From Paramagnetospirillum caucaseum (lineage in GTDB: Bacteria > Pseudomonadota > Alphaproteobacteria > Rhodospirillales > Magnetospirillaceae), in assembly GCF_000342045.1 (NCBI RefSeq), contig NZ_AONQ01000001.1, positions 124,001 through 188,000 on the forward strand: 64,000 nucleotides of DNA. The letters are read 5' to 3'. Shown in pieces: positions 1,229 to 20,890 of the stretch. Below the pieces are notes generated by a model. The model was not told the DNA's origin, did not search any database, and worked only from the letters and a program-made list of their open reading frames with translations. A program made the position numbers and the translations under genes. Within the stretch, counting starts at the first letter, position 1. Each line of letters starts with the position of its first letter.

Positions 1229-1230
1229 GC

Positions 1231-1260: not shown

Positions 1261-1263
1261 ATT

Positions 1264-1548: not shown

Positions 1549-1619
1549 CTATGAGCGATTGCCACCGCCCCACCTGTTGGACAGAAGCAGGATAGATCCA
1601 AGCCGAGATGATGTCAGCA

Positions 1620-2130: not shown

Positions 2131-2179
2131 CTCCGAAGGCAGAGGTCGTAGGTTCGAATCCTACCGGTTGCGCCAATTT
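2131..2179 (+). repeat. attachment site, left copy (3' half of tRNA-Arg)
   Basis: These 49 bases are identical to 19898-19946. They read as the 3' half of a tRNA: an anticodon loop remnant CTCCGAA, anticodon stem GGCAG, a T-arm with GGTTCGAATCC, an acceptor strand and a terminal GCGCCA. The loop implies a CCG anticodon (arginine). No matching 5' half precedes it, so this is not a functional tRNA but an att copy left by integration into a tRNA gene. Confidence 0.88.
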
Positions 2180-2355: not shown

Positions 2356-2949
2356 TCACTCGCAGTCCTGGTCATGCTGATCCAGCCAACAACGAATCTC
2401 ATCCGGCGCTTGGCGCGGACCCACTTGGCACAGCATGACTGGAACTTCGCCCCACTCGTCGGCGACATCAAGCAAATGATCGCCGTCTTGGATTTGGACA
2501 CCACCGACCATCACCGCATAAGTCGCGTTGTCAGTCATCTCAAAGCGGCACGCAAAATCCTCTATGTCGCCAGAGTCTATGTAGAACGTAACCTTGGCTG
2601 GAAATCGGTCTTCCAGTGCTCGTGGAGTGCTATCAGATGGATGCAGAGTTGCTCTAATTATCGAAATATCATCTTGCTCGGTTGTCCAGACCGTGAAAGC
2701 CCCATATCCAAGACTGCTATGAAACACCGCCTCCAAATGTTTGGAGGTAACCTCCCCCCCGCCATTGTCGGTCACCTCGAGTTGGCCACGACACCCTGCC
2801 AAAACGCTTTGTAGGAACTGGTAGCCCTCTGCATCTGCGGCTATGGTGATGTGCCAAGGGTATCGTTCCCGCAGCATTTTCAATCTTCTCTCAATGGCGG
2901 CTCCGGGGCTATTGCGCCAATGCCTAACGGATAATCTTCTGCTCATCAT
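2356..2949 (-). CDS. hypothetical protein
   Basis: A 197-residue protein (MMSRRLSVRHWRNSPGAAIERRLKML...). The frame extends upstream to 3027, but AGGAGG lies 3 bases before the ATG at 2949 and 6 bases before a second in-frame ATG at 2946, so translation begins at one of these. No known domain is recognised. The N-terminal 30 residues are basic and the remainder is acidic and beta-rich, with no signal peptide or membrane segment. It is the first gene inside the left att copy and is transcribed towards it, opposite to the protease operon at 3257. It could be element cargo or a control gene. The function is unknown. Confidence 0.6.
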   Translation of the reverse strand: MMSRRLSVRHWRNSPGAAIERRLKMLRERYPWHITIAADAEGYQFLQSVLAGCRGQLEVTDNGGGEVTSKHLEAVFHSSLGYGAFTVWTTEQDDISIIRATLHPSDSTPRALEDRFPAKVTFYIDSGDIEDFACRFEMTDNATYAVMVGGVQIQDGDHLLDVADEWGEVPVMLCQVGPRQAPDEIRCWLDQHDQDCE

Positions 2950-3159
2950 AAACCTCCTATTATATTCATACTTTGCTATGTTACGGAGCCACGTCTTCTT
3001 GAAAAGTGATGCACTTTCTATCGCCACACCACATCAATGGTTATTTATGCAGTCGCGCAATTCCATTGTCCGCAGCGTAAGCTTTTGACTCTTTATAGAG
3101 TTTGAGAGGAAGGCAGGATGTGGGGAGGCACATCCAGGTAGCCGACAAAGGCGGGGCTC
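2950..3159. other. divergent intergenic region
   Basis: This AT-rich spacer separates the minus-strand gene at 2356-2949 from the plus-strand operon at 3257. It contains AGGAGG (2953-2958, minus strand) for the former and a small palindrome, ACTCTTTATAGAGT. I see no gene in it. Confidence 0.4.
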
Positions 3160-4867: not shown

Positions 4868-4868
4868 G

Positions 4869-7551: not shown

Positions 7552-7568
7552 TTCCTATGCCGTCGCCA

Positions 7569-8161: not shown

Positions 8162-8598
8162 GACCATCCTCCTGAAACTTCCTGGAAATATGGTCCCGGT
8201 CATTTCGGTTCGCAACGGAAATTGGTGCAGGGGTTCGAGTCGGCATTCCCGCATCGTGCATTGGGACGCCGAGGCGGGCGAACATGGCGTGGAGATCGAG
8301 GGCGAGATCGTGGCGCTGCTTCAGGCCGGGACAAACAAAAACGCCGCAGCTTTTGAGGCTGCGGCGAATTCGTTCAAGTTGGTTGCGGGGGCACGCCACC
8401 ATTTGCCGCGAACATCGCTCAGGAAGCCTAAGTTGATTGCGGGGACTTCATGCAGCTTTGGATATAGAAATCAACGTCAGTTACGTCCCACTTGCCCGCA
8501 TCGCTAGATCGGGCAATCAGCCCCGACCTGTTGCCGCTTGTCCGCGAGGTATATGTACGGTGTAAGCGACCAGCACATAGCCTCTCACACTCGGGCAT
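8162..8598. other. intergenic stretch of 437 bases
   Basis: I see no credible gene here. It holds the DUF433 ribosome site, a minus-strand terminator (8331-8366) and two degenerate direct repeats, AAGTTGGTTGCGGGG and AAGTTGATTGCGGGG (around 8377 and 8430), which suggest a scar of an older insertion or duplication. Confidence 0.4.
8331..8366 (-). terminator. rho-independent terminator (minus strand)
   Basis: CGCCGCAGC (8342-8350) and GCTGCGGCG (8358-8366) form a perfect nine-base stem. On the minus strand it is followed by TTTTTGTTTG (complement of 8331-8340). It would terminate transcription from the minus-strand gene at 8599-8808. Confidence 0.75.
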
Positions 8599-8808
8599 TC
8601 AAGCCATCCAATGCTGATCTGCGTCGCCTCGAATTTCGTAGATGCGTCGGCGGATTGCCCCTGCGGCCTTATCGGCTTCCTGGAATTCGGGCGAGTCCAT
8701 GCCCTTGGCGATGCAAACGGCGCCAGCTTGGCTTACGGCGGCAACATACTCCGCATAGAGTTGCCGCAACACTTCCCCTTCCTCGGGGCTGATAACGGTT
8801 CTGGTCAC
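8599..8808 (-). CDS. small hypothetical protein
   Basis: A 69-residue, largely helical protein (GTG start, then TRTVISPEEGEVLRQLYAEY). The frame is open upstream to 8871, but GGAGG lies a few bases before the GTG at 8808, supporting that start. It has a single Cys and no membrane or export signal. A strong minus-strand terminator follows at 8331-8366. No family is recognised. It is divergent from the caspase-like unit, with the duplicated regulatory module between them. Confidence 0.5.
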   Translation of the reverse strand: MTRTVISPEEGEVLRQLYAEYVAAVSQAGAVCIAKGMDSPEFQEADKAAGAIRRRIYEIRGDADQHWMA

Positions 8809-8889
8809 GCCTTTCCTCCGTCCGATGCATTCCGCTAAGCATAAAGGAGGCGAGGCAGATTTCCGATCCAAATCCGACGGGGAATGGCA

Positions 8890-8988
8890 GAAAAATTCTT
8901 GGCAAAAATCCTTCCCACGTCCGTCTTATGGCCTAACAGGTGGCCATGCTATCGTTTCGGGCAGGAGGCTATCCAGAGGGGAATGGAA
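8890..8988 (+). promoter_or_regulatory. duplicated upstream module B (candidate ECF-type promoter)
   Basis: Homologue of the module at 3160-3262. It has AAAAATT and AAAAATC tracts, CCGTCTTATGG (8921-8931), CTAAC (8933-8937), CCATGCTATCGTTTCG (8944-8959), ATCCAGAGGGG and ATGGAAATGTTC. The TAAC-to-CGTT spacing is 15 bases here and 16 in module A. Preservation of the two core words while the spacing and flanks diverge suggests functional constraint by a common regulator. Confidence 0.6.
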
Positions 8989-9081
8989 ATGTTCAATATA
9001 CGCAAGGCTGGCCGTATTGTCAGGGTAAATACCGACCTCAAAGAGAGACTTATGTTCAATGCTTGGGCGGAAAGGGGATAG
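8983..9081 (+). CDS. possible 32-residue leader ORF before the caspase-like gene
   Basis: An ATG at 8983, in the same position of the duplicated module as the start of the protease gene at 3257, opens a 32-codon frame (MEMFNIRKAGRIVRV...AWAERG). It ends five bases before the ATG of the SEL1/caspase gene. The first residues (MEMFNIRK) match the protease N-terminus (MGMFFTRK). It could be a coupling leader or a relic of the duplicated gene start. It lacks a signal peptide. Confidence 0.4.
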   Translation: MEMFNIRKAGRIVRVNTDLKERLMFNAWAERG

Positions 9082-9085
9082 CGCA

Positions 9086-11146
9086 ATGGGACCGGTGACG
9101 AAGTTGTCGGCGATGGCTGCCGCCGTGCTCCTATGCCTGACCGCGATGGCATCGGCCCAGTCAGTTGAGGATGCAGTGGCCGCCTCTTCGCGCGGTGATT
9201 ATACGACGGCTCTCAGTGTTCTACGGTCACTGGCTGAGCAGGGAAATACCGAGGCGCAGAGTATCCTTGGAGCCTACTACGCTAACGGTCTGGGAGTTTC
9301 CCAGGATTACGCCGAGGCTATGCGCTGGTATCGCAAGGCAGCTGAGCAGGGAAATACCATGGCGCAGGTCGACCTTGGAAACGGGTACGCTAGCGGCTCA
9401 GGAGTCCCCAAAAATTTTACCGAGGCTTATAAGTGGTATCGGAGAGCAGCAGAACAAGGAATTGCGGCAGCCCAATTCAATCTCGGAATTTTGCTCGCTT
9501 GGGACCAAGGAACACCTCAGGAACACATTGAAGCAGTCAGTTGGTTCCGCAAAGCAGCCAGCCAGGGGCTTGCTCATGCTCAATACAGCCTAGGTCAAAT
9601 GTACGCCATTGGCCGAGGCGTTCCCCAGGACTTTGCCGAAACTGTTAAATGGTATCGCAAAGCCGCTGAACAGGGGCTTGTCGAGGCGCAAGGTAGCCTT
9701 GGAGCCATGTACGCCCTGGGTAAAGGAACAACCCAGGATTACGCCGAAAGTGTTAAATGGTACCGCAAAGCCGCTGAACAGGGGTTCGTGGACGCCCAAC
9801 TCAGCCTCGGTCAAATGTACGCCTTTGGCGGAGCCATTCCCCAAGATTTTGTGCTGGCTCATATGTGGTTCAACCTTGCCGCAGCTAATGGCAATCAAGA
9901 AGCGGTAAAGAATAGGGATCATACAGCCAAATTCATGAACCCAGCCCAGTTGACCGAGGCCCAGAAGCTTGCCCGGGAGTGGAAGCCAAAAACCCTATCT
10001 GGCCCTTGGGAAAAATTCGCCCAAGCTGGAGCCGCCAATCCTTTCGATCAGTTCGACCCTCCGAAAGTTGCTGCCCCTCCCAAAGCCCACGCTGGAGCAG
10101 CCCCAACTCTATCGGTCAAGCCTGTTGCCACAACCCCATCCTCCACCATCGATGTGGCCGGGAACGTTTCCAGCAAGGGGCGGATCACCTCCCTCCAGAT
10201 CGATGGCACGGATGTGCCTCTTCAGTCCGGTGGCGGGTTCTCCGTGCGCCGGGGCATTCCTTTGGGGGAGAGCGTAATCCGACTGGTTGCGACTGACGAG
10301 TGGGGGCAGTCAGCCGAAGCCACAGTGAAGGTGACGCGTATCACCGCGTCCACTGAAACGACGCTGGCAAGATTGTCTCCAGGTCACCTCAACGGCAAGT
10401 CTCGCCCCAACGCCATCGCCCTAATTATCGGCATCGAGCATTACAAGAGCGCCCCGCCCGCCGAATTCGCCGAAAACGACGCCCGCCGGTTCTACGACTA
10501 CGCCACCAGTGCCCTGGGGGTTCCGGCGTCGCGGGTCAAGCTGCTGACTGGAGCCGATGCTCAGCGGGTGGATGTGGAGGCCGCCATTCTGACATGGCTG
10601 AAGCCGCAGGTGGTCAGGGGCCAGACCGAGGTGTTCCTCTTCTTCTCCGGCCATGGCCTCGCTTCCGACGACGGCAAGGATTTGTACCTGCTGCCCCAGG
10701 ACGGCAATCGCGCGCTGCTGGATCGCTCTGCCCTGCGCCGCAAGGAACTGATCGACATGATCGTGGACAGTGGGGCTAAATCGGCCACCTTGTTCCTCGA
10801 CACCTGCTATTCCGGCGGAACGCGGGGCAAGGAGACTCTGGTTTCCTCCGCTCGTCCGATCCTGGTGGCGGCCAAGGAGCAGACGGTGCCTGCCAATGTC
10901 ACGATCCTGGCCGCAGCCGGGAACGACCAGTTGTCCAGTTCGCTGACCCAGGCCAAGCATGGGCTGTTCAGCTACTTCCTGATGAAGGGCCTGGAGGGCG
11001 ACGCCGCCGGTCCCGACCGAACCATCACCGCCGCCAAGCTGGAAGCCTATCTTGCCGAGAAGATTCCCGCCGAGGCCGCCAAGCTGGGCCGCACCCAGAC
11101 GCCTCAGTTGATCGGCGACGGTAATCGGGTGGTCTCATCATGGTGA
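9086..11146 (+). CDS. exported SEL1-repeat / caspase-like (C14) protease
   Basis: A 686-residue protein. A signal peptide (MGPVTKLSAMAAAVLL...AMASAQ) is followed by about seven SEL1 repeats of 36 residues (about 45-285, with KWYRKAAEQG units). A linker and a beta-sandwich or Ig-like segment (about 350-425, VAGNVSSKGRITSLQIDG) come next, then a caspase-like p20 domain from about 440. The catalytic dyad is visible: His523 in FFSGHG and Cys574 in LDTCYSG. SEL1 repeats usually bind partner proteins. The start at 9086 gives the signal peptide. The frame shares its control module with the trypsin-like operon. It is probably a periplasmic effector protease, and its specificity and trigger are unknown. 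Confidence 0.88.
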   Translation: MGPVTKLSAMAAAVLLCLTAMASAQSVEDAVAASSRGDYTTALSVLRSLAEQGNTEAQSILGAYYANGLGVSQDYAEAMRWYRKAAEQGNTMAQVDLGNGYASGSGVPKNFTEAYKWYRRAAEQGIAAAQFNLGILLAWDQGTPQEHIEAVSWFRKAASQGLAHAQYSLGQMYAIGRGVPQDFAETVKWYRKAAEQGLVEAQGSLGAMYALGKGTTQDYAESVKWYRKAAEQGFVDAQLSLGQMYAFGGAIPQDFVLAHMWFNLAAANGNQEAVKNRDHTAKFMNPAQLTEAQKLAREWKPKTLSGPWEKFAQAGAANPFDQFDPPKVAAPPKAHAGAAPTLSVKPVATTPSSTIDVAGNVSSKGRITSLQIDGTDVPLQSGGGFSVRRGIPLGESVIRLVATDEWGQSAEATVKVTRITASTETTLARLSPGHLNGKSRPNAIALIIGIEHYKSAPPAEFAENDARRFYDYATSALGVPASRVKLLTGADAQRVDVEAAILTWLKPQVVRGQTEVFLFFSGHGLASDDGKDLYLLPQDGNRALLDRSALRRKELIDMIVDSGAKSATLFLDTCYSGGTRGKETLVSSARPILVAAKEQTVPANVTILAAAGNDQLSSSLTQAKHGLFSYFLMKGLEGDAAGPDRTITAAKLEAYLAEKIPAEAAKLGRTQTPQLIGDGNRVVSSW

Positions 11147-11205
11147 GGACGAGACGACGCACACATCAAGAGAGGGCGCGCCGTCGCCCCTGCATTTAGA
11201 GGCGG

Positions 11206-11634
11206 ATGGAAATGGTATATCTGATCGGACTCATCGTAATTTCTCCGCTCTGGGGAATGCTCTCAACTCAGCTGTTCCTCCAGTCCTGGCTGTCTTTCAT
11301 CAATCTCGGCATATGCCTCATCGGCTTCATCCGAGGCAAGACCGCCCGTCGCGACAACCTGATCGGAATCGGAGTTTGCTTGTTGTCCGTGGCGCTGTTC
11401 TCGGCGGGCCTCTGGCTCGGGCAGTGGATTCTTGCCGAGCACTCCCCCTTTGGACAAACTCAGTCTGAAAATGTCGTGTATTGGGTATTCTGCGCCATCT
11501 CGGCGCTTTTCATGGTTCCCCAGATGCTGAAGCGGATCGGAAAGTCATGGAAGCAAGCCACCGTCCCCGGCGAGCGCGAAAGTGATTACTTCAAGAATCG
11601 CGCCAAGATGGCTCAGAATGACGCAGGACGATGA
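11206..11634 (+). CDS. small membrane protein
   Basis: A 142-residue protein with about four hydrophobic segments (about residues 3-20, 23-43, 52-75 and 90-107) and a basic cytoplasmic-type C-terminus (LKRIGKSWKQ...KNRAKMAQNDAGR). A second ATG at 11212 is better spaced from AGAGG and may be the real start, six bases later. It follows the caspase-like gene by about 60 bases on the same strand, and is probably cotranscribed. No family is recognised. It could anchor or insulate the effector system in the inner membrane, but this is contextual inference only. Confidence 0.6.
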   Translation: MEMVYLIGLIVISPLWGMLSTQLFLQSWLSFINLGICLIGFIRGKTARRDNLIGIGVCLLSVALFSAGLWLGQWILAEHSPFGQTQSENVVYWVFCAISALFMVPQMLKRIGKSWKQATVPGERESDYFKNRAKMAQNDAGR

Positions 11635-11638
11635 AAGC

Positions 11639-12223
11639 CTATTGGCCCGGCCTGTTCACCAGTATGCCTTGATTGTTCGCAAGATTCTGCTGTGGGGATA
11701 GCGCCGTTGAATGCGCTCCGTGCTCTCGCCAATTCGCTCTGTACCGATGGGCTAACGCATTGTCGCTGATTACCAACACATTCTCCGCATTCCGGTCCTG
11801 GGCAGCTTGGCTGAAGTTAAATGACCCGGTAATAACTCGGCTCTGGTCGATGACCATGATCTTGTTGTGGGCGATGGCATGGGCGCGGTCGATGAAGACG
11901 GGGACCCCAGCCTCTTTCAGGGCTTTGGCCGCCAAAGCCCCTTTCTTCTCGCATTCACCCCGGTCCTTGCAGACGTTGCTCTTGTCCAGAATCACCTGGA
12001 CATCGACGCCGCGGCGCTTGGCATCGGCCAATGCCGTCACGATATCGGGGCTGGTGAACGAATATGCCTGGACCAGCACTTGACGCCGGGCACTGGCGAT
12101 CTGATCCACGATCAGGTCAGTGCAGGCCTCGCCGGGGGTGAAGCAGACGCCAATGATCTCGGTCGCTGCGGCAGGAGATGCCGACAAGCTCAGGATCATT
12201 GCGAAAAGGACGCTATGCTTCAC
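11639..12223 (-). CDS. exported PLD-family (HKD) nuclease-like protein
   Basis: A 194-residue protein with a signal peptide (MKHSVLFAMILSLSASPAAA). It has a single phospholipase-D motif: HNKIMVID followed by GSFNFS (H-x-K-x4-D then G-S-x-N). One HKD motif per chain, an N-terminal export signal and about 190 residues match the Nuc-type endonuclease group, which work as dimers. It is therefore probably periplasmic and acts on nucleic acid, although a phospholipid substrate cannot be excluded. It ends five bases after the converging membrane-protein gene and shares its strand with the sigma/anti-sigma pair. Defence against incoming DNA or a lethal effector role are both possible. Confidence 0.82.
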   Translation of the reverse strand: MKHSVLFAMILSLSASPAAATEIIGVCFTPGEACTDLIVDQIASARRQVLVQAYSFTSPDIVTALADAKRRGVDVQVILDKSNVCKDRGECEKKGALAAKALKEAGVPVFIDRAHAIAHNKIMVIDQSRVITGSFNFSQAAQDRNAENVLVISDNALAHRYRANWREHGAHSTALSPQQNLANNQGILVNRPGQ

Positions 12224-12297
12224 CGGGTGGCCTCAACGGCTGAGATGACCTCATAAGCCGTTAGACGAGCACTCCACCGGTTTTCCTGGAAAATTTC

Positions 12298-13017
12298 TTA
12301 GCGGACAGAAGGCTTCGGCCCAGGCATGACGTCACCCCCTTCGGGGGCGACCTGCGGCATGCTCCTCGTGGCTGACGGCGGAGGCATGGTTTCCTGGGAT
12401 GCTGCCGGAGCCAGATAGGTCGGAGCCGTCTTCTCTCCGGCCACCACCGGGGGAGGCATGCTTTCCCCTTGGCGGGGTTGAGGCTGGGCAAGCCTGGGGC
12501 CATCAGCGGGCGCAACAGGTGTTGGAGCAGACTTGGCGGTAACCGGCTGGGTGGTGTCGGTCGGAGGGGCGGTGCGGCTGACGATAACCAACACGGCCAA
12601 GGCGGCAACCGTCACAGCCAGCGCGACTCCCGACCATTTCCAGATTGGGAATGACCGACGTGGTGACGACGGCAATATCGCCGCCGGTCGGCTCATGGCG
12701 ATGGTGGATGCCACCAAGTCAGCAGGGGCAGCGTCCCGTGATGTCGCCACGTTTTCCAGGAACGCATCGGCGCTGGCAAGGTCGTGCAAGGCAGCAGCCG
12801 ATTGCGACAGGCGAGCATGAAGGTCGTTCTGCTTGGCTTCGTCCAAGCCACCATCCATATAGGCGACCAGTTGGACAACATCCAGCGTGTCCGATTCGCC
12901 GTGATCCAGATCGGCGGCAAGGTGGGCGACTTGGCGTGGATGGGCAGCATTGTCCGCCACATTGTCGGCATCGCCGAAAAGCCGCTCGAACAGCGCATGA
13001 AGGGTGCCGGGGGTCAC
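12298..13017 (-). CDS. anti-sigma-factor-like membrane protein
   Basis: A 239-residue protein with a GTG start preceded by GAGGAG. Residues about 45-95 (LVAYMDGGLDEAKQNDLHARL) resemble the anti-sigma helical domain of zf-HC2-type regulators, but the His-x3-Cys-x2-Cys zinc site is absent. A single transmembrane helix (about 126-146, after FPIWKW) is followed by a long Pro/Ala-rich periplasmic tail (to residue 239). It lies 25 bases after the sigma gene, so the pair is cotranscribed. The likely role is to hold the sigma factor at the membrane and release it when the tail senses an envelope signal, perhaps by proteolysis. Confidence 0.7.
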   Translation of the reverse strand: MTPGTLHALFERLFGDADNVADNAAHPRQVAHLAADLDHGESDTLDVVQLVAYMDGGLDEAKQNDLHARLSQSAAALHDLASADAFLENVATSRDAAPADLVASTIAMSRPAAILPSSPRRSFPIWKWSGVALAVTVAALAVLVIVSRTAPPTDTTQPVTAKSAPTPVAPADGPRLAQPQPRQGESMPPPVVAGEKTAPTYLAPAASQETMPPPSATRSMPQVAPEGGDVMPGPKPSVR

Positions 13018-13042
13018 GGTCTGATGTCTCCTCGCTGAACCA

Positions 13043-13927
13043 TTAGACGGACGCCTTCCACATTTTGACCGCTGGATGTTTGTCCAGGGTTTCCCGCAGC
13101 CGGGCCATGACCCGCTGCTTCAACTTGTAGACCTCCTCCACCGGGCGACGCATCTGACGCGCCACCTCCCGCGCCGGGATAGGTTCGCCGCTGCCCAATG
13201 CGATGTGCAGGTATAGGCGCTCCGTCTCGGAAAGGGCGGCGGCGGCCTCCCGCAGAACCTCGGATGCCAACGACAACAGGCGGTCCCCTTCCTGCTCCAA
13301 CAGGGCATCTTCCGGCGATGGCTGGTCCGAGGGGATGTCCTCCCATTCCGTTGTCTGGGCCTCGGTTCTTTGCCGCCCCAGCGGCATGGTGCTGCGGATG
13401 AAGTCGATCAACAGCCGATCAACCATCTGCAACACGAAGCCGGTGAAGCTGCCAATGCCGCGATACGCCTTCAGCCGCCGGTAATCATCGGCAATCAAGG
13501 CCACGCAGATGTCCTGGTAGGCATCCTGGCGTAAATCCGCACGATCTGCTCCGGGAAGGCGGCGGTTGATGATGCGGTTGATGTCGGCGGCGAAGAACCG
13601 CTCGAACGCGGCCCAGCCATCGGACGCAGAATGGACATTGAACAGGCGCAACAGCCGCTCGGCCAGCACATCCCTGGTCACCAGGGCGACGAAGGTCTCG
13701 ATCCTGCTGGACCCGTTATAGGCTCGCAGCCGCCGAAATCCATCGGCGCGAAGGCCGTCCATGACATCCGAAAAGGCGGCGCGGGAATCGGCGTCGTCAC
13801 CACAGAGCAATCGGCAGGCTGTCCAGACCGTATCGGCAATGCGGCGCACAAGCCTGTCCCAAGCCAGCGGCTTGGCATCCAGGACATCACGGACAAGGGC
13901 GCGATTTTCGACGGTGTGAATGGTCAT
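13043..13927 (-). CDS. sigma factor with tandem sigma2-like regions
   Basis: A 294-residue protein resembling ECF-type sigma factors, but with the sigma2 region apparently duplicated. Residues about 23-96 and 105-178 align, most clearly FRRLRAYNGSSRIETFV (64-80) with YRRLKAYRGIGSFTGFV (149-165). A C-terminal sigma4-like helix-turn-helix (about 228-280, LSETERLYLHIAL, EVARQMRRPVEEVYKLKQ) follows. Typical ECF factors are about 170-200 residues, so the extra 90 or so are explained by the second copy. It is followed by a membrane anti-sigma-like gene. The two duplicated modules at 3160 and 8890 are the obvious candidate targets. The ribosome site before the ATG is weak. Confidence 0.78.
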   Translation of the reverse strand: MTIHTVENRALVRDVLDAKPLAWDRLVRRIADTVWTACRLLCGDDADSRAAFSDVMDGLRADGFRRLRAYNGSSRIETFVALVTRDVLAERLLRLFNVHSASDGWAAFERFFAADINRIINRRLPGADRADLRQDAYQDICVALIADDYRRLKAYRGIGSFTGFVLQMVDRLLIDFIRSTMPLGRQRTEAQTTEWEDIPSDQPSPEDALLEQEGDRLLSLASEVLREAAAALSETERLYLHIALGSGEPIPAREVARQMRRPVEEVYKLKQRVMARLRETLDKHPAVKMWKASV

Positions 13928-14204
13928 CAGGGATCGAAAAGTATCAAGACGTGCAGAAGGTTAGCCTGATCCGAACCATCCGTCTCGATCCTTGAGTATC
14001 TACGGACCTGAATGGCATCGCAGCCATGGACACTTCCATCGGGGAGATGTCGGACATTTCCCTCGCTGCCATCCCCAGGCTGCTTCCTCCGGCGCGGCAA
14101 ACACGAACTGCCGAGCCGTTGGCTTGCGGGGGACAAGCCACCTCTCCACAGGTTTTTCTTTGCAAAAAGTCCCCGCGACAAGGGGCAAACATGAAGGTGA
14201 CAAA
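13928..14204. other. divergent intergenic region
   Basis: This 277-bp spacer lies between the sigma gene (minus) and the AT-rich gene at 14205 (plus). It should hold promoters for both. A clean copy of the CCGTCTTATGG/CGTTTCG module is not seen here, so the sigma gene does not appear to be controlled by the same element. Confidence 0.4.
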
Positions 14205-14978
14205 ATGGAAAAATTCAAAATGACCGTTCGGGCCGAGATAAGCGAAAAAGCCAGTCAATGGCTTTTCGATAACCTCGGCCAGAAAGGCCATGATTCATGG
14301 CTTGAGACCAAAGGTAGACGGGTATACGACAGAAATGATCCGCATATAGCTGTCGATTACTTTCTTCCGATGGATAAGAAGCGTTATCTGACGATGTTCA
14401 GGATCAAGTTCGTCGAGGAAACGCCGCAACTTGTAACTATGACGAAGGCAGATATAAGGCGGTGCAATGTTGCCTTCATTGAAGACTTAGAAAACGAAAT
14501 TGGAAGGAAAATGCCAAAAAATGGCACCACAAAATACTTCTTTGACACAATGCCGATATGCAATGCTGATTTCAGCGATCCTGGGCAATACATAAAGGCT
14601 ACAGGCGCATTGTGGAATGCGTTCCCGCAAAGCCTTGGAGTTGTTAAGGAAGTATCTGGGTATTTTGACCTTATAATCAGACCAAATCTTCTGACCGATA
14701 AGGTTGCGTCATCAATAATTTTTGATCTTGAAAAGGCATTATTTCGGTTCCTTCACGACGGCCAACCACTCCCCCTAATCTACAAGGTCGGGCGTATCCT
14801 GACAGATTACTATGTCTTCGACTGGATCAACGCTATGTCAACGATGCTGCATGTGGTGCAAATGGTCCATCCATTCGAGATTGGAGGGGGCATTGATCAT
14901 TATGTCGCGGAATTTCAAAATCAGACCAAGATACCGCCAAGAAACAGGGCACTTCAAGTCACAAACGCTGCCGAGTAA
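14205..14978 (+). CDS. hypothetical protein, AT-rich gene
   Basis: A 257-residue protein (MEKFKMTVRAEISEKASQWL...) that I do not recognise. The ATG at 14205 has AAGGTGA upstream. The frame extends further but without such support. Base composition is clearly lower in GC than the flanking genes, with Lys, Asn and Ile in place of Arg and Ala, a sign of a different origin. No signal peptide or membrane segment is seen. Features include a central GTTKYFFDTMPICNADF and a C-terminal hydrophobic stretch, YYVFDWINAMSTMLHVV. It is followed by a short gene at 15023. Confidence 0.6.
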   Translation: MEKFKMTVRAEISEKASQWLFDNLGQKGHDSWLETKGRRVYDRNDPHIAVDYFLPMDKKRYLTMFRIKFVEETPQLVTMTKADIRRCNVAFIEDLENEIGRKMPKNGTTKYFFDTMPICNADFSDPGQYIKATGALWNAFPQSLGVVKEVSGYFDLIIRPNLLTDKVASSIIFDLEKALFRFLHDGQPLPLIYKVGRILTDYYVFDWINAMSTMLHVVQMVHPFEIGGGIDHYVAEFQNQTKIPPRNRALQVTNAAE

Positions 14979-14984
14979 CTACGC

Positions 14985-15022
14985 ATAAATACTTCTATGG
15001 AAACATGAAATGGAGGAAAAAT
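14985..15022 (+). promoter_or_regulatory. TATAAATA-like element and ribosome site
   Basis: GCATAAATAC (14985-14994) stands about 29 bases before the ATG of the small gene at 15023, with ATGGAGG between. The same layout, TATAAATAC then ATGGAGG, precedes the minus-strand gene 78-299. It recalls T4-type late promoters (TATAAATA), but an ordinary AT-rich -10 box is equally possible. Confidence 0.35.
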
Positions 15023-15253
15023 ATGCGACTAAATGAGCTAACAGTTTCGGCGACTGACGCCGTATCCGTCACTCCATCCAATAATGATGATATTTACTTT
15101 GCGGAAGACGGGACATTAGGTGCCGGTCTGATTGGTATTCTTGATGCACTCAAATCGGCAACGCACCGAGCAGAGCGCCTGATCGATATCATCATCATGC
15201 GAGCAGATAGGCGGGCAATAGACAGCAGAAAGGTCAAAGTGAAATGCGTATGA
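15023..15253 (+). CDS. small hypothetical protein
   Basis: A 76-residue protein (MRLNELTVSATDAVSVTPSNNDDIYF...). The frame begins at 15005, but ATGGAGG lies directly upstream of the ATG at 15023. The middle (GTLGAGLIGILDALKSATHRAERLI) is helical, and the C-terminus is basic (RADRRAIDSRKVKVK). It is related in its opening residues to the protein of 78-299 (MRYHEF), and both have a TATAAATAC-like element upstream. The function is unknown. It may belong to the same cargo family. Confidence 0.5.
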   Translation: MRLNELTVSATDAVSVTPSNNDDIYFAEDGTLGAGLIGILDALKSATHRAERLIDIIIMRADRRAIDSRKVKVKCV

Positions 15254-15360
15254 TTATAAATAAAGTTAGCGTTGTTCCAGCTATTTACGCAAAAGGTGGC
15301 AAAATTAGATTTTAATGAACTATTAGCGGCATGTGCTGAGCCACCTCCCTGCACATGTCT

Positions 15361-15390
15361 GCCCCCGGTGCGCTGGAACGCACCGGGGGC
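15361..15390. other. perfect 12-bp hairpin before the Rep-like gene
   Basis: GCCCCCGGTGCG (15361-15372) pairs perfectly with CGCACCGGGGGC (15379-15390) around CTGGAA. A weak T-run (GTTTCTT) follows. It could be a terminator, but its position about 20 bases before a possible HUH-type replication initiator also fits a stem-loop nick site. Confidence 0.6.
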
Positions 15391-15411
15391 GTTTCTTGTA
15401 GAGGTGGGAAA

Positions 15412-16086
15412 TTGTCGAAAGGTGAACCAAGGGAATATATAACCAAAAGCAAATCAATACCAAGGAGTTGGGGGTTTTTTAATCGGACAGATCGTTCAAA
15501 AATTGCTTTTGTTACTATAATCATATCGGGAATTAAGGTCGGACCAGACACGCCAGCCGAGTCAATTCGGAGCGATATATTGAACGAAATGGCGGCTTTC
15601 AAGAAAAAGTGGATCGGCCTAACTCGCGCTCGCCGCCTTCCTGGTCTTCGGATTCGCGGATTTTTTGAAATCGATCTGTGCCGATCATCGGATATCCATG
15701 GCCATAGACAATCATTGTTTGAAGACATGCTGGTTCCCCCGATTTCGGATCACGAGCGGATCATAAACCTGCACATCCATTTTTTGGTGGCCTGCACCTG
15801 CTGTGCCGTGGAGAAGCTTGCCGAGGAATTAAAGCGAACATGGCTGGGCCGATGGAGGGTTGTTGTGAAGCCTGTATACGAAAATCAAGCAACCGAGGTG
15901 GCTGTCTCCAACCTGTATGGCTACATGACAAAGCAGATATTCAGGTATTCATGCGGCGGCATCGGCAATGAAGCTGTTGCTTTCAACAGAGAGTGGGAGG
16001 CGTTATGGGTGAGTAAGCTAAAAAGAATTGCGATAGAAACAAATGTTGAGTTTAGATCATCTGATAGATGGATATATACACATTAA
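15412..16086 (+). CDS. possible HUH-type replication initiator
   Basis: A 224-residue protein, from a TTG start preceded by GAGGTGGG. The open frame begins at 15355 but would read through the hairpin. Residues 120-127 read LHIHFLVA, which is the His-hydrophobic-His-hydrophobic pattern of HUH endonucleases. About 50 residues later NLYGYMTK (168-174) gives a Tyr-x-x-Lys, the usual place of the nicking Tyr. GFFEIDL (84-90) is compatible with motif 1. Rolling-circle plasmid Rep and inovirus-type initiators have this order. The assignment is from motifs only, and the protein is short. It has an AT-rich, atypical composition for this genome. It may replicate or mobilise the element. Confidence 0.45.
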   Translation: MSKGEPREYITKSKSIPRSWGFFNRTDRSKIAFVTIIISGIKVGPDTPAESIRSDILNEMAAFKKKWIGLTRARRLPGLRIRGFFEIDLCRSSDIHGHRQSLFEDMLVPPISDHERIINLHIHFLVACTCCAVEKLAEELKRTWLGRWRVVVKPVYENQATEVAVSNLYGYMTKQIFRYSCGGIGNEAVAFNREWEALWVSKLKRIAIETNVEFRSSDRWIYTH

Positions 16087-16224
16087 CTACATAAACATTA
16101 GTGCAGCACAAATGCACGCAATTGCACGCTAACATGTCGCATATTTTATATGCATAATATACATCCATATGGCACTTCAATCTTATATAAATATGCCTGC
16201 AACATCATGCAGGAGATAGGGCTA

Positions 16225-16548
16225 ATGCTTGAAATTGATGAAATATATAGGGAGTTAAGTAGCCTTGGGGCTGTTCAATCTGGCAGACGGTTCGGGGAGA
16301 TCATGAACCGAAGCGAGAGCTATCTTAGTTCGTCGAAGTCACGGGGACGACGACCATCTGTCGAAGCCCTATTGGCGCTGATTTTGAACATTGACGGCAT
16401 CGTCGAAGCGACCATCGATGAGATCAAGAACTGTAACGAAAAAGGCCTGTTGTCTGAATACGAGCAGGGCATAAAGGGGTTGCGGGCTCTGGAGATCAAG
16501 GCATGGGCAGATGTCTGGGCGCGTGTTGAGGCAGGCCGGAATAGTTAA
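16225..16548 (+). CDS. small hypothetical protein
   Basis: A 107-residue protein (MLEIDEIYRELSSLGAVQ...). GGAGATAGGG precedes the ATG at 16225. The frame extends upstream to 16150. GRRFGEIMNRSESYLSSSKSR may be a DNA- or RNA-binding helix-turn-helix-like region, followed by a hydrophobic helix (ALLALILNIDGI) and a charged C-terminus. No family is confidently recognised. A TATAAATATG element lies upstream (around 16185). Its stop overlaps the stop of the converging resolvase gene by four bases. Confidence 0.5.
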   Translation: MLEIDEIYRELSSLGAVQSGRRFGEIMNRSESYLSSSKSRGRRPSVEALLALILNIDGIVEATIDEIKNCNEKGLLSEYEQGIKGLRALEIKAWADVWARVEAGRNS

Positions 16549-17099
16549 CCGGCGGCGAGTAGCCGATAAACCGATGCCCGTCCGATCCCCAGACGCTTTG
16601 CGATCTCCGTGGCACCGATCCCGTCCGACTTAAGGCGCAGGACATCTTCTTCCTTGGCCCTCGCAGTCGGTTTCCGGCCTTTGTATTTGCCCTGGGACTT
16701 TGCCCTGGCGATGCCCTCTCTCTGGCGCTCCAGCATGATCTCCCTTTCAAACTCGGCGACCCCGCCCAGCACGGTCAGCATCAATTTGCCGGTGGGGGTG
16801 GCGGTGTCGATGCCCATGTTGAGGATGCGGAGGTCCGCGCCCTTGGTCTTGATGGTGTCCATGATCGTCAGCAGGTGACCGACCGAACGGGCCAGCCGGT
16901 CCAGCTTGGTGACCACCAAGACATCGCCCTCGCGGATGAAGTCCAGCGCCAGGGCAAGCTGTTCCCGGTTCCCGACATCCACCGAGGAGACCTGTTCGCT
17001 GAACAACTTGTCGCACCCGGCAGCGGTCAGGTCACGGGCCTGGGCTTCGATGCTGGCCTTCTGGTCCATGGTGGAGGTGCGGGCATAGCCGATGAGCAT
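16545..17099 (-). CDS. serine recombinase (resolvase/invertase family)
   Basis: A 184-residue small serine recombinase. The N-terminus (MLIGYARTST) contains the nucleophilic Ser at the usual position near residue 9. The catalytic-domain motif LDRLARS is present, and the dimer helix region ends in EREIMLERQREGIARAK. The C-terminal helix-turn-helix is IGATEIAKRLGIGRASVYRLL. This matches Tn3-type resolvases and Hin/Gin-type invertases. It probably resolves or inverts DNA at repeats within the element. The upstream 17100-17250 region, with four GAGAC or GTCTC words, could be its target site. The GC content is higher than that of its AT-rich neighbours, so the gene probably entered separately. Confidence 0.93.
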   Translation of the reverse strand: MLIGYARTSTMDQKASIEAQARDLTAAGCDKLFSEQVSSVDVGNREQLALALDFIREGDVLVVTKLDRLARSVGHLLTIMDTIKTKGADLRILNMGIDTATPTGKLMLTVLGGVAEFEREIMLERQREGIARAKSQGKYKGRKPTARAKEEDVLRLKSDGIGATEIAKRLGIGRASVYRLLAAG

Positions 17100-17250
17100 A
17101 GGTATCTCCAGGCAAAGTGTCTCAATGAGATCTTAGGCATTGTATCCAATGCGTCCCAAAAGTCAAATGCGACGCTAGTGAGACAGATTCCGATGTCAAC
17201 GGGAGGTGACCGAGACATCTCGCTGAACCTTGGTCAAGCGAGACAGCGGG
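17100..17250. promoter_or_regulatory. candidate res site of the serine recombinase
   Basis: Upstream of the resolvase gene are GTCTC (17119) and three GAGAC words (17180, 17212, 17239), two of them in larger matching contexts (GCGAGACAGC, GTGAGACAGA). Multiple inverted recombinase-binding sites just upstream of the recombinase gene are typical of res. No exact crossover can be assigned by eye. Confidence 0.4.
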
Positions 17251-17338
17251 CGGAGTTGCTGCCATGCGCCGTATGGCGGCATCGCTAATGATATGACGTA
17301 TCTTTCAATACACAAACAAAACAGCAGAAGGAGGCGAG

Positions 17339-17536
17339 ATGAGATACAAGGTTGTTACAAGACGATGGTATTTATACCATGAGGAATACGTGGAGATTAT
17401 TTCGGCAAGCTCGGAGGAAGAGGCGGAAAGTCTATCAAATCCGGTATTTTATTCTGATCATGATGATGATGATGATGGAGATGACGTCGAGGTGCTCCCT
17501 CTGAGGTTTGACCTGCCAGAAGACCTTTTTCACTAA
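17339..17536 (+). CDS. small acidic hypothetical protein
   Basis: A 65-residue protein with a strong ribosome site (GAAGGAGGCGAG). The N-terminus (MRYKVVTRRWYLYHEEYVEI) forms strands, then an Asp tract (HDDDDDGDD) follows, encoded by GAT repeats, and the protein ends PLRFDLPEDLFH. It is a compact cytosolic protein without export signals. No family is recognised. It lies between the resolvase region and the integrase. Confidence 0.55.
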   Translation: MRYKVVTRRWYLYHEEYVEIISASSEEEAESLSNPVFYSDHDDDDDGDDVEVLPLRFDLPEDLFH

Positions 17537-18024
17537 GATATTGCGGCAGCGGATGCGCCGCCGCGTTTCTGACAGCGGCGACCCTCGTTCCGCTATTCGT
17601 CCCTGGGGGATTCGTAATGAACACCTTAAGCGGCGTGCCGTAGGCCTTGCCATCAATGATGCATCCGGTTTCCTGGTTCTATTTGCGCCGGATTAGATGG
17701 GCCGATAGGCCGGGGGCGGCCTTCTGGGCGTATCCAATATATACACGTTAAAGTGTTATCGACAACGAGGTGACGGTATGGCATGTTTGTCCTGGTTATC
17801 GCTCCTTGACATCGTAAATAGCTAGGAATTGGGCCGCAGAGTGGCTGCGGCCCAATTCAAGCCACCCCACCATATGATTGGAGTTCGAAAGGAAGGGGGC
17901 TGGCGCGGTATACTCGGCAGGGTTGTTTATATGCAGCTATTCCTGCGGGCTGTAAATGCCGTCTCCGCATGGTGTCCGGTCCTTGACCCAGCTTCTTGTC
18001 AGTCAGCAAAAGCCGATCTGGTTC
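17537..18024. other. intergenic region, no gene seen
   Basis: About 490 bases between the small acidic gene and the integrase. I find no convincing coding frame. It holds a perfect 14-bp hairpin at 17826-17858. Confidence 0.4.
17826..17858. repeat. perfect 14-bp inverted repeat
   Basis: GAATTGGGCCGCAG (17826-17839) pairs perfectly with CTGCGGCCCAATTC (17845-17858) around AGTGG. It lacks a T-run on either strand, so it may be a protein-binding palindrome, a structured RNA or a weak terminator near the 3' side of the integrase gene. Confidence 0.6.
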
Positions 18025-19728
18025 CTACAGAACGATGCCGGTCTCGACATCAAGAGCTTCGTTCACCAGGGTCAAAAATTGGTGTGCTTCTGCCGAATTA
18101 AAGCAGCGCTCCCCCACAAAGTCGTGGATTTCTCCCAGCTTTTGATCGATTGGGAGCGTGACGAACTCATCGCCATAGACATCTCGCATGATCCGTAAAA
18201 ACTCCGACACGTCGCCGCCCCATTCTTTTCTGCGTCGATCTAAGTCCGAGGCAGGTTCAATCGCCTTCGCTGTACTGAAAACGGTTGGCCCATCCTCGGT
18301 GGGATCGATATCAACCTTTCCCAACAGGTAATCCAGTGAATGGGGCAGCACCACCACGGTGTTGGGTGGACGGGGCTCTTGGTGCTCCATCTCCGACAGG
18401 ACGTGAGAATAGTGCCGATCAATCATTTCTATCGATGTCCCGGTCCACCGCGATACAAAGCCAAGGTCTTGGCGTTCGTACAACCTGTCAGTGATGAATG
18501 TGTGCCGGAACGATCCCAATGCATAATGGCTTTTGTAACGCGCCCCCCTGGCAAACTTCGCGGCATCCAGCAGTTCAACAAATGGCTTTGCGGTGTTGCG
18601 ATTGGGTGTGCGGTCTTTGTCGTGGAACACGAAATCGTCCTCGGTCACCTCATGTTCGTCAAAGTGGTGGTAGGCTTTTTTCAGGTTGTCGATGACTGAC
18701 CGAAATCCAGACTGCGGCGTCACCGTGCGGATGTGTTTGCGAACATCAGCCCTCTTAAGGTGCTCGGGCCGCAAGCGGACGAGGTAGGAAATTTCGCCTG
18801 CCTTATCTGCGCCAGAAATAAGATCGCGAAATCGAAGGCGCGACGCTTCAACAGGGCGCAAGCCTGTTAGGTATAGGGCCAGCATGCGGTAGTGGTTGAT
18901 CACCATGGCGCGGCGTTGAATGGCGTGAAGGTGTTTGCGACATCGGGCCGCCGATACCTTTTGAAGGCGCTCGATTTCGTCCGGGGTAAATGCCAACCGG
19001 ACACTGCCGCTCCCCGACAACCGCTTGAATCGTGGAATCCCCTCTGCCCGGATGTAGCCTCGGCTCGCTGCGAATTCCATGAAGTGATAGAATTGCTGAC
19101 GTTCCTTCCGAAGCGTCGCTGGTCCGGGAACTACGGGCGTGAATGGACGGATCAGTTCCTTGCCTTGGCGTTCGTACTTGATAAACGCTTTGCCCTGGTA
19201 GTCAGAAGCATAGGATTCGCGCCATTCGTGGTAGCGGACCAAATCGGCGCTGGTAATCGTGTCGATGAGTCTGTCACCGAAATATGGAGCAAAATAGCGC
19301 TCCAAGGTGGTGCTGACGCGGGAACGGAAATAGGTCTTGACCAGACCCAGCCGAACACGCTCATCCAACCAGCGAAGGTATTCGGTCACCAACCCGCTGA
19401 ACGCCTTTGGGTGCAGGCTTTCGCCCCGTTCAACACGGTAGTTCAGCGCGGCGTATAGCTGGCGGGCCTTATCTTTCGCTCTGTCTAGGTCACTTTCCCC
19501 GGTGCTCCGTTCAAGTCGGTTGCCGTCGTTGTTGATGCTGAATGCCCCAGGGGCCGGAGCGATGGTGATGCGGGCCGTCCAAATGGCCCTGCCTTGCTTT
19601 TTTCGCAGTATTACTGGGATGTCTTCGAATCGAAACTCGTTGGCTGATTCCTCGGCCGAAGCTGGAATCACTGCTGCATTAGCCCTGGCCCGAGAACCTT
19701 GCTCGGTCAGTAACTTACCATTTGCCAT
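18025..19728 (-). CDS. tyrosine recombinase (phage-type integrase)
   Basis: A 567-residue integrase. The ATG at 19728 (MANGKLLTEQGS) has GGGGAC just upstream. The frame can also start at a TTG at 19797. A core-binding domain (about 130-290) is followed by a catalytic domain with Arg in LYLTGLRPVEASRLR, FRHTFITDRL (box II), WTGTSIEMI and the nucleophile Tyr in RHYSHV. The usual His before Arg in box II is not obvious. The gene is transcribed inwards from the right attachment repeat, 170 bases away, so it is the natural candidate for integrating this island into the tRNA gene. The length is long for the family, with an extended N- and C-terminus. Confidence 0.92.
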   Translation of the reverse strand: MANGKLLTEQGSRARANAAVIPASAEESANEFRFEDIPVILRKKQGRAIWTARITIAPAPGAFSINNDGNRLERSTGESDLDRAKDKARQLYAALNYRVERGESLHPKAFSGLVTEYLRWLDERVRLGLVKTYFRSRVSTTLERYFAPYFGDRLIDTITSADLVRYHEWRESYASDYQGKAFIKYERQGKELIRPFTPVVPGPATLRKERQQFYHFMEFAASRGYIRAEGIPRFKRLSGSGSVRLAFTPDEIERLQKVSAARCRKHLHAIQRRAMVINHYRMLALYLTGLRPVEASRLRFRDLISGADKAGEISYLVRLRPEHLKRADVRKHIRTVTPQSGFRSVIDNLKKAYHHFDEHEVTEDDFVFHDKDRTPNRNTAKPFVELLDAAKFARGARYKSHYALGSFRHTFITDRLYERQDLGFVSRWTGTSIEMIDRHYSHVLSEMEHQEPRPPNTVVVLPHSLDYLLGKVDIDPTEDGPTVFSTAKAIEPASDLDRRRKEWGGDVSEFLRIMRDVYGDEFVTLPIDQKLGEIHDFVGERCFNSAEAHQFLTLVNEALDVETGIVL

Positions 19729-19897
19729 CAGCGTCCCCGGATCGTCCCCAAAACTTACCGCCAAACGATGGTAGAAAGTATGGCATAGGTCTGTCAATTC
19801 AACGAACGATGAACACCCGAGTTTTCCTCAACTTTTGTCGCCAAAGACATCGTTTTAAAGTTGAGACTTGACAAAGAAATTATGATGGTCAGAAACT

Positions 19898-19946
19898 CTC
19901 CGAAGGCAGAGGTCGTAGGTTCGAATCCTACCGGTTGCGCCAATTT
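19898..19946 (+). repeat. attachment site, right copy (3' half of tRNA-Arg)
   Basis: Identical over 49 bases to 2131-2179 and in the same orientation. The upstream 5' sequence is unrelated to a tRNA, so this is a duplicated end rather than a tRNA gene. It marks the right boundary of the island. The conserved chromosomal gene ygfZ follows. Confidence 0.9.
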
Positions 19947-19990
19947 CCCATGAAGAAGCGTGCCCGGCGATCGGGGGGCGGGGTTTCCGT

Positions 19991-20890
19991 TCATTCCTCG
20001 GGGAACACCGCCCATTTGGGCTTGGCGGCGACCAGGGTGGCGCCGCCGGCGGCGAGGCCCGCTCCGCCGTTGGCGCGGAACTGTTCCAACCGCACCAGGG
20101 CGAGGCCCACGTTTCCGCAATGGGAGCGCATCTCGCCGGCTTCCGCCTCGGCCAGGAGGAGCGGGGCGCCCGCTTCGGGGGCCGGGCCGGAGATTTCCAC
20201 CGGCATCAGGCGCTTCCGGACCAGGCCGCGGTATTTGGTCCGCGCCGTCAGTTCCTGGCCCATGTAGCAGCCCTTGTTGAAATCGACGCCGTTCAGTTCC
20301 TCGAAGCCGTTTTCCAGCAGCAGGGCCTTGTCCACCTCGAGATCGCGCGAGCCGTCGGGCAGGCCCAGACGGATGCGGGCCTCGTCCCACGCCTCGAACG
20401 GCGCCGGCGTGAACCCGTTGGCCTCCAGCACGCGGGGGCCGCCGTCGGCGGGCAGCAGGGCGCGCAGGCCGGCCCCGGCCAGGCGGGGATCGACGAAGAC
20501 CGTGCCGCCGGCGAATTCGGTGGCGGCGCCCGCCTCGGCGGGCAGGTCGAAGACGGCGGCGGCGCCGTCGCCCATCAGGCCGAACACCGCCGTATGGGCG
20601 GAAACGGCCAGGGTCACCTGCGAGCGCAGCTTGTACATGGACAGCTTCTTGCGCAGCTCCTCGATGCGCGCCGCCTCGGCCTCGACCAGGAAGAGGTCGC
20701 CCAGTTCCACCACGAACAGGTCGAAGAGGAACTTGCCCTGGGGGGTCAGCAGGGCGGTGAACACGGCGCGGTCGCCGGCCACCTTGTTCATGTCGTTGGA
20801 GACCAGCCCCTGCAGGAAGGCGCGGCGGTCCTCGCCCCCCACTTCCAACACGGCGCGCTGTTCCAGACGCACAAAGACCTTGTCGCTCAT
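19991..20890 (-). CDS. ygfZ: YgfZ folate-binding Fe-S cluster protein
   Basis: A 299-residue YgfZ/GcvT-like protein. The family signature K-G-C-Y-x-G-Q-E is present as KGCYMGQEL (about residue 213). The N-terminal RAFLQGLVSNDM and C-terminal beta-rich region also fit. YgfZ uses folate to support maturation of certain Fe-S enzymes, including the tRNA-modifying MiaB. The start at 20890 (MSDKVFVRLEQ) is preferred because GAGAGGA lies upstream. The open frame starts ten codons earlier. It is the first conserved chromosomal gene to the right of the island, with its stop codon 45 bases from the att copy. Confidence 0.92.
   Translation of the reverse strand: MSDKVFVRLEQRAVLEVGGEDRRAFLQGLVSNDMNKVAGDRAVFTALLTPQGKFLFDLFVVELGDLFLVEAEAARIEELRKKLSMYKLRSQVTLAVSAHTAVFGLMGDGAAAVFDLPAEAGAATEFAGGTVFVDPRLAGAGLRALLPADGGPRVLEANGFTPAPFEAWDEARIRLGLPDGSRDLEVDKALLLENGFEELNGVDFNKGCYMGQELTARTKYRGLVRKRLMPVEISGPAPEAGAPLLLAEAEAGEMRSHCGNVGLALVRLEQFRANGGAGLAAGGATLVAAKPKWAVFPEE

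Follow-up and report, generated by a model that had tools for sequence, protein, structure and literature searches.

A putative HUH replication initiator and its leader hairpin in a probable plasmid-like element integrated at a tRNA-Arg gene of Paramagnetospirillum caucaseum

Background

In a 64,000-nucleotide stretch of DNA of Paramagnetospirillum caucaseum (hereafter the window), an open reading frame carrying the motifs LHIHFLVA and GYMTK stands close behind a perfect stem-loop. The original prediction took this arrangement for a rolling-circle initiator of the HUH type next to its nick site, on an island that could replicate or be mobilised as single-stranded DNA and that might have inovirus-like ancestry. 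The locus therefore raises the questions of whether the protein is such an initiator, what kind of DNA it serves, and whether the hairpin is the site on which it would act. Judged from the sequence, it is likely that the island is an integrated plasmid-like element with its own integrase, that the gene encodes a single-domain HUH initiator (Rep), and that the hairpin is an attenuator limiting the supply of Rep.

Results and Discussion

An element at a tRNA-Arg gene

Perfect 49-bp repeats are present at both ends of window 2131-19946, which may therefore be regarded as one element of 17.8 kb (Table 1). An integrase together with direct repeats of a tRNA 3' end, both found here, marks an integrative plasmid or mobile element at a tRNA gene. 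The complete tRNA-Arg(CCG) gene is located further left (G000:C1:111958-112034, G000 being the genome of the window), and the repeat matches its 3' end at 86% identity. Between this gene and attL there is probably a second element in tandem, to which window 1-2130 belongs (G000:C1:111958-126131); judged by eye, ORF 417-869 in it is similar to a gene of 147-165 aa in the 5-kb elements described below.

Table 1. Features of the element, in window coordinates
Feature	Position	Strand	Remarks
attL, 49-bp copy of the tRNA-Arg(CCG) 3' end, left end of the element	2131..2179	+	100% identical to 19898-19946
223-aa ORF beside attL, end gene common to the islands, no assigned function	2356..3027	-	
241-aa protein, first gene of the conserved cassette	14253..14978	+	in 3/55 genomes of the taxonomic family, E ≤ 0.01
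82-aa ORF, probable start ATG 15023	15005..15253	+	conserved in three-island alignment
Possible leader ORF through the hairpin (PPPCTCLPPVRWNAPGAF)	15296..15442	+	same frame open in G009
CCACCTC, anti-Shine-Dalgarno arm of predicted outer helix	15341..15347	+	pairs with 15401-15407 in the 15340-15420 fold; alike in G009
Perfect 12-bp hairpin with T-run (15392-15397), probable attenuator/terminator in rep leader	15361..15390	+	
Shine-Dalgarno site GAGGTGG of rep, buried in predicted outer helix	15401..15407	+	
rep, putative HUH-type replication initiator	15412..16086	+	TTG start, 224 aa; motif conservation, predicted fold, profile comparison
Small hairpin over Shine-Dalgarno site of next gene	16196..16213	+	6-bp stem; 8 bp in G009, same place
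107-aa DUF6626-like all-helical protein, possible cassette regulator or partner	16225..16548	+	
Serine resolvase, putative multimer resolution	16545..17099	-	Pfam Resolvase (1.4e-42), also HTH_7
Probable res site, with a single TGTCTC box and three of GAGACA	17118..17250	.	
Perfect 14-bp hairpin without T-run, candidate origin	17826..17858	.	counterparts in G016 and G009
590-aa tyrosine integrase	18025..19797	-	PHROGs integrase 3e-25
attR, 49-bp repeat of the tRNA-Arg 3' end, right end of the element	19898..19946	+	

Islands at the same tRNA gene are found in G016 and G009, with lengths of 29.5 and 26.2 kb, respectively, by att positions. The window integrase is found at E ≤ 1e-60 in 3 of the 55 genomes of the taxonomic family (G000, G016 and G009), all of which have the short form of rep, and the 241-aa cassette gene is present (E 0.01) in exactly these three of the 55. 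The cassette is colinear in the three islands, in the order 241-aa ORF, 82-aa ORF, hairpin, rep, DUF6626-like gene and serine resolvase. The similarity between the window and G016 stops at 17250, where the region of TGTCTC/GAGACA boxes ends, and from this point to the integrase there are about 14.9 kb of other genes in G016, in contrast to 0.8 kb in the window. The 223-aa ORF beside attL lies in DNA that is colinear in G016 and has, by eye, a similar 245-aa ORF beside the tRNA gene in G009 (L022 6885-7622); it has no match in Pfam or PHROGs.

The window integrase scores 24.8 bits against Pfam Phage_integrase, just below the cut-off of 27.1, and the G009 integrase, 82% identical to it, scores 28.0 bits. 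The G016 integrase, which is also 82% identical, was outside the Pfam scan. Pfam is preferred for these calls because a loosened regular expression fired in 7 of 9 control stretches. The integrase candidates beside other rep homologues pass the Pfam cut-off in all ten cases tested, which with G009 makes 11 of the 17 genomes with a homologue. The order is tRNA, integrase, rep in two distant homologues, L095 (tRNA-Gln) and L098 (tRNA-Ala), and rep, DUF6626-like gene, resolvase, integrase in L074. Two results count against the explanation given above: the integrases of G000 and L074 are under the Pfam cut-off, and by pattern no integrase is found near the rep homologues of G356, G189 and G266 (3 of the 17 genomes).

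The 107-aa protein encoded after rep matches Pfam DUF6626 (E 2.2e-6, 28.5 bits against a cut-off of 27.3), and its predicted model has a pLDDT of 82. A gene of this kind also adjoins rep in G009 (24.7 bits, below the cut-off) and is present in a 5-kb element (L018 7116-7397, E 1.9e-11); the counterpart in L074 is recognised by alignment only (35%), with no Pfam match. A PDB search with the model gave nothing informative, and no literature naming DUF6626 was found.

The cargo of the element includes a TPR protein with a trypsin-like protease domain (3185-4867; Trypsin_2, 3.5e-21) and a Sel1-repeat protein with a caspase domain (9059-11146; Peptidase_C14, 4.6e-14). There is also a PLD-like gene (11642-12223; PLDc_2, 4.4e-30), in a stretch that is largely missing in G016. 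A DUF5615/DUF433 pair within 7529-9060 is probably a toxin-antitoxin module; the G016 island, which is otherwise colinear, lacks the stretch that contains it and has about 40 bp between the flanking sequences.

The rep gene and its relatives

The ORF as first called extends over 15355-16086 (+), with 243 aa from the first ATG, and so contains the hairpin. In the G009 copy of rep, which is 53% identical, an in-frame TGA lies between the hairpin and the gene, so that translation there does not begin before the hairpin. This TGA, together with the GAGGTGG at 15401-15407, makes TTG 15412 the likely start, 21 bp past the hairpin, in agreement with the predicted distance of about 20 bases. Both motifs are encoded in this frame, the HIH codons being at 15772-15780 and that of the candidate catalytic Tyr at 15922-15924; the distance from the second His to the Tyr is 48 residues.

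The pattern HxH...Y[ILMVT]xK occurs in one of the 133 stop-free stretches of at least 180 aa in the window, namely the rep gene (where it fires from an earlier HGH), and in one of 416 such stretches from nine 20-kb control stretches. Conservation of both motifs in homologues is stronger evidence than such chance frequencies of motif or hairpin. Whole-genome searches yielded a 99% identical copy in G016, the 53% copy in G009 and more distant relatives. A profile (A2) built from seven rep sequences matches, at E ≤ 0.001, 11 of the 55 genomes of the same taxonomic family and 7 of 385 of the class, the window's own genome being in both sets, for a total of 17 genomes. The only invariant residues in the alignment of the 17 homologues are T37, G85, H125 and Y173, with E88, H123 and K176 close to invariance (alignment numbering). 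These residues correspond to motif I, the adjacent GxFE strand, the HxH of motif II and the YxxK of motif III.

The full-length relatives start with a zinc finger of the type CxxPFCPMCR. The window protein belongs to a short clade (G000, G016, G009 and L074) that has no CxxC finger. The fourth member, L074, is a Magnetospirillum MAG contig recovered in a second scan of genome contigs, the first scan having given no relative. One distant homologue (L071 1336-2634) shows a weak N-terminal match to HTH_17 ahead of the Rep part (residues 40-88, 20.3 bits, cut-off 27).

No relative was found in plasmid and phage records at E 0.01 with two queries, so that an extrachromosomal form is undocumented, which counts against the proposed explanation. 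None was found in viral contigs either, and among the island proteins, 19 compared with Pfam and 15 with PHROGs, none is in a family named inoviral or conjugative, many PHROGs being unnamed. The suggestion of inovirus-like ancestry thus finds no backing in these comparisons. The weak matches L005, L006, L008 and L009 were rejected as chance, since all four contain in-frame stops; L008 is surrounded, by eye, by respiratory-chain-like ORFs.

The hairpin in the rep leader

The stem-loop at 15361-15390 has 12 perfect pairs, or 13 in RNA with a U-G pair, and the loop CTGGAA. Three perfect inverted repeats of at least 12 bp (loop 3-12) are found in the 64 kb, as compared with a total of one in ten order-1 Markov shuffles; one of the three, of 13 bp, is at 44562-44592, outside the element. 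The RNA of 15340-15420 is predicted to fold at -44 kcal/mol (z -5.7), and the hairpin is the terminator-like site with the most pairs in 14000-20000. On the rep strand the stem is followed by TTTCTT, and there is no T-run on the opposite side. In G009 the stem is largely preserved, as is the loop, (C/T)TGGAA, and the tail, ATTTTTT, retains the T-run. Between the two versions, both partners differ in two pairs and a single partner in another two, and a further pair is lost; pairing is 95.8%, versus 33-54% when the partner is slid. The covariation statistics are weak because just two distinct sequences differ, and 122 of 500 column shuffles equal the observed value.

The fold of 15340-15420 would also bury the Shine-Dalgarno site of rep against the CCACCTC arm (Table 1). 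In the fold of a longer stretch this arm pairs instead with an upstream AGGTGG (15294-15299), so that two states of the leader are possible. A putative leader ORF (PPP...WNAPGAF) runs through the hairpin in both the window and G009, where its frame has a 3-nt indel and GAGGTGG stands ahead of the ATG. A G+C-rich stem with a T-run behind it, ahead of the gene concerned, marks an intrinsic terminator or attenuator, and both are present here. Only a few bases lie between the end of the terminator and the Shine-Dalgarno site, which leaves hardly any room for a promoter, so rep must be transcribed through the terminator. Attenuation is the simplest reading of such a leader.

That the hairpin is instead the double-strand origin, nicked by Rep in the CTGGAA loop as the original prediction implied, is unlikely. 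Rolling-circle origins often adjoin rep, and in favour of this reading are the long perfect stem only 21 bp from the gene, the preservation of loop and stem in G009, and the comparable hairpin of L074, which is G+C-rich, has 11 pairs and ends 67 bp before rep. In both variants, however, only the rep strand has a T-run after the stem; hardly any promoter room is left between stem and Shine-Dalgarno site; and the changes in the stem are compensated, as would be expected of an RNA, in contrast to the hairpin of the 5-kb elements, which is fixed in sequence. Moreover, when the 400 bases before 15 further homologues were scanned (the starts of L004 and L007 being uncertain), none of the 14 full-length or distant ones had a T-run hairpin of at least 8 pairs within 90 bp of the ORF start. 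A terminator-like 13-pair hairpin is found 98 bp upstream of rep in L068, and the other 13 have no T-run hairpin within 300 bp upstream. The fifteenth is L074, with 4 T in the 8 bases after its hairpin, and the leader hairpin may thus be a trait of the whole short clade. An attenuator therefore appears to fit the hairpin at 15361-15390 better than a nick site does.

Other searches with the leader gave no candidate. An Rfam match to NsiR1 over the hairpin was dismissed as chance (sub-threshold, 21 of 39 bits, E 1.5). Searched for as DNA, the hairpin gave, beyond G000 and G016, short matches at E 0.002 or worse in the taxonomic family, taken as background, in a search that did not recover the hairpin of G009 itself. 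A pattern derived from the leader matched eight places in viral contigs, which by eye are unrelated.

Candidate origin hairpins here and in related elements

A better candidate for the origin than the leader hairpin is the perfect 14-bp hairpin at 17826-17858. No longer perfect inverted repeat (loop 3-12) was found in the window, and its distance from the integrase stop is about 167 bp. In G016 and G009 a hairpin of 13-14 bp with a related core is present on the same side, 3' of the integrase. At E 1e-5 only those two of the 55 genomes share the stretch with this hairpin; the copy in the window is too diverged to reach the threshold.

Elements of about 5 kb that carry full-length rep have a candidate of their own. 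These elements encode a 405-aa integrase, response-regulator-like proteins, DUF6626 and Rep, and they occur as tandem pairs in L018 (6400-16188), L019 (6500-17400) and L099, the ends being repeated in L018 and L019. They contain a 13-bp hairpin, CACACAGCGCAGT/ACTGCGCTGTGTG, whose arms are invariant and whose flanks are well conserved, while the loop varies; a T-run follows it on neither strand. There are eight copies of it in the 55 genomes and none of a reversed control. In six of the eight it is located 679-779 bp upstream of rep. The other two mark further stretches of such elements in the window's own genome (G000:C102:11576-11605 and G000:C138:3266-3295), on contigs L116 and L117, which end 566 and 567 bp past the hairpin, short of a rep start. 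Within two mismatches, no copy was found in the first elements of G009 and G001, nor in G002, G017, G065 and L074. The hairpin may be an origin; it is also possible that it is a binding site for another protein.

The nature of the Rep protein

No model in Pfam, PHROGs or NCBIfam matches the Rep protein at its cut-off, which counts against the explanation; annotation pipelines therefore probably miss this family. For the family as a whole PHROGs gave chance-level scores only, and a PDB sequence search with the 17 homologues gave a single irrelevant match (E 0.9). The best score of any relative against Rep_1 (PF01446) is 18.2 bits, with a cut-off of 33.2, and the window protein itself has no match to it. 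Direct comparison of profiles is more informative. The short clade matches the full-length relatives at 99.3%, and the full-length relatives match the pUB110-type Rep at 94.2%, or 95.8% when all 17 members are used, in an alignment that spans the zinc finger, motif I and HxH and does not include motif III. The short clade by itself reaches 1.3% against the pUB110-type Rep, which counts against the explanation; unrelated integrases, used as a negative control, reach 0.4%. Hence a search against Rep families, proposed beforehand as a check, connects the full-length relatives to a plasmid Rep and leaves the window protein below every cut-off.

The fold was predicted with AlphaFold2 (AF2) from two sequences (the window Rep and L074) in five runs. 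The best model has a pLDDT of 71 and a pTM of 0.72, and the others have pLDDT values of 69, 67, 52 and 35; the last two are poor models and count against the explanation. The best model consists of a strand (31-43), a helix (49-72), a strand (80-90), a strand carrying H121 and H123 (116-127), a helix (133-143), a strand (148-154) and a helix carrying Y171 (161-180). This is the order of elements in HUH proteins, with HxH in a beta strand and Y171xxK174 in a helix; the Tyr motif of HUH enzymes is described as lying in a helix, and Reps as having the motif order I-II-III, in the accessible part of PMC5714925. In the VIA-align comparison the top match is the SIRV1 ORF119 protein 2x3g (Z 8.4, rmsd 4.4, over 115 of 116 residues), and no other of the 994 chains reaches Z 8. 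Next come ferredoxin-like proteins such as ribosomal S6 with Z 6-7, and the porcine circovirus Rep has Z 5.3. The scores of the ferredoxin-like folds count against the explanation, as does the tool's own remark that models lacking a clear match commonly have a top Z between 7 and 8. According to the available parts of PMC4187194 and PMC6668415, 2x3g is a Rep protein with an HUH fold and nicking activity. A Foldseek search of the model against the PDB and BFVD gave nothing at E ≤ 0.001, with 2x3g at E 0.039, which likewise counts against the explanation. The order of elements thus agrees with the prediction, and the likeness to a solved HUH protein is a tentative one.

It is improbable that the protein is a mobilisation relaxase or an HUH transposase instead of a replication initiator. 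Weak family matches of the 17 homologues fall most often to Rep_1 and Zn_Tnp_IS91, both of them families of HUH proteins, with four members each; they favour an HUH protein, and a transposase as often as a Rep. Rep and mob nucleases share a common active-site architecture according to the accessible text of PMC5714925, which also describes the motif order of Mob proteins as reversed relative to that of plasmid Reps. The order in the window protein is that of plasmid Reps, and Pfam recognises no conjugation gene among the 19 island proteins. A relaxase is also not needed for movement, because the integrase and the att repeats already explain it.

The chance that the protein is a decayed or repurposed HUH protein, now serving only in DNA binding or repression, is quite small. 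The short clade lacks the finger of its full-length relatives, as decay would suggest, yet HxH, Tyr and Lys are retained throughout it, and G000 and G016 differ in rep by 7 synonymous and only 3 nonsynonymous changes (uncorrected dN/dS about 0.12). A ferredoxin-like protein with coincidental motifs and no HUH ancestry is highly improbable: ribosomal S6, DapE and other such folds reach Z 5-7, but the Rep match stands above them, the motif residues are the fixed positions of the 17 homologues, and the profile of the relatives matches a plasmid Rep family. Motif conservation, predicted fold, profile comparison and the integrated-element context favour the predicted HUH initiator, here of an integrated plasmid-like element, which appears well supported at the level of sequence and context.

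A model for the element

In the model that we prefer, the element would have entered the 3' end of the tRNA-Arg(CCG) gene by means of its own tyrosine integrase and would be able to excise as a circle. Rep would then nick one strand at the origin hairpin, for which 17826-17858 is the candidate, remain bound to it through Tyr171, and prime rolling-circle copying of the circle; multimers would be resolved by the serine resolvase acting at 17118-17250. The supply of Rep would be kept low in two ways, by the terminator hairpin at 15361-15390, which would stop transcription just ahead of rep, and by the CCACCTC arm, which would hide the Shine-Dalgarno site of rep. Of this model, the sequence itself shows the att repeats, the gene order, the conserved motifs, the predicted fold and, in two variants, the hairpin with its T-run; nicking, replication and resolution of the circle, attenuation and the position of the origin are inferred.

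More tentatively, the family may have a wider role. It is conceivable, although we would not call it probable, that an undescribed Rep family drives plasmids integrated at tRNA genes or elsewhere in the chromosomes of Magnetospirillum-like and other alphaproteobacteria, each initiating at a hairpin of its own that is not a terminator (CACACAGCGCAGT...ACTGCGCTGTGTG in the 5-kb elements, 17826-17858 here), and that the branch without the zinc finger is gated by a leader combining a terminator with a hidden ribosome site.

Integrated elements with their own initiator could multiply once excised, which could give rise to tandem copies and to the spread of cargo without conjugation genes. The pairing of hairpin and Rep in the 5-kb elements offers a concrete candidate origin and possibly a small vector system for magnetotactic bacteria.

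Comparison with known systems

Elements of this kind are already known, as the available text of PMC6668415 indicates, and the Rep family appears undescribed in the libraries used. Literature searches on such Reps in Magnetospirillum or in integrated elements brought up no paper about this family, although one may exist. Regulation by the leader and the candidate origin hairpins would be new details.

The integrated plasmids of Kazlauskas et al. (2019; PMC6668415) are likewise chromosomal, inserted site-specifically between direct repeats, and, as far as the accessible account goes, encode an HUH Rep and no viral structural genes. The bacterial pCRESS Reps described there have nuclease and helicase domains, whereas the window Rep, with its 224 aa, is a nuclease only. 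Compared by description alone, the present family may be one of the unnamed clusters of that study.

The pUB110-type Rep_1 family (PF01446) resembles the full-length relatives in zinc finger, motif I and HxH. The similarity is nevertheless below the Pfam cut-off, the window clade lacks the zinc finger, and the host and the type of element are different. The rudiviral Rep SIRV1 ORF119 (2x3g) is, like the window Rep, small and single-domain and is its best structural match; the likeness comes from a predicted fold, and ORF119 acts on a linear viral genome, as described in parts of PMC4187194 and PMC6668415. Lastly, the Rep-Arvir/SNJ2 provirus is likewise integrated, encodes a rolling-circle Rep of its own and has a conserved hairpin that is its likely origin, but it is an archaeal virus whose Rep has a Rep_trans-related fold and whose hairpin is located downstream of rep, according to the accessible part of PMC13107129.
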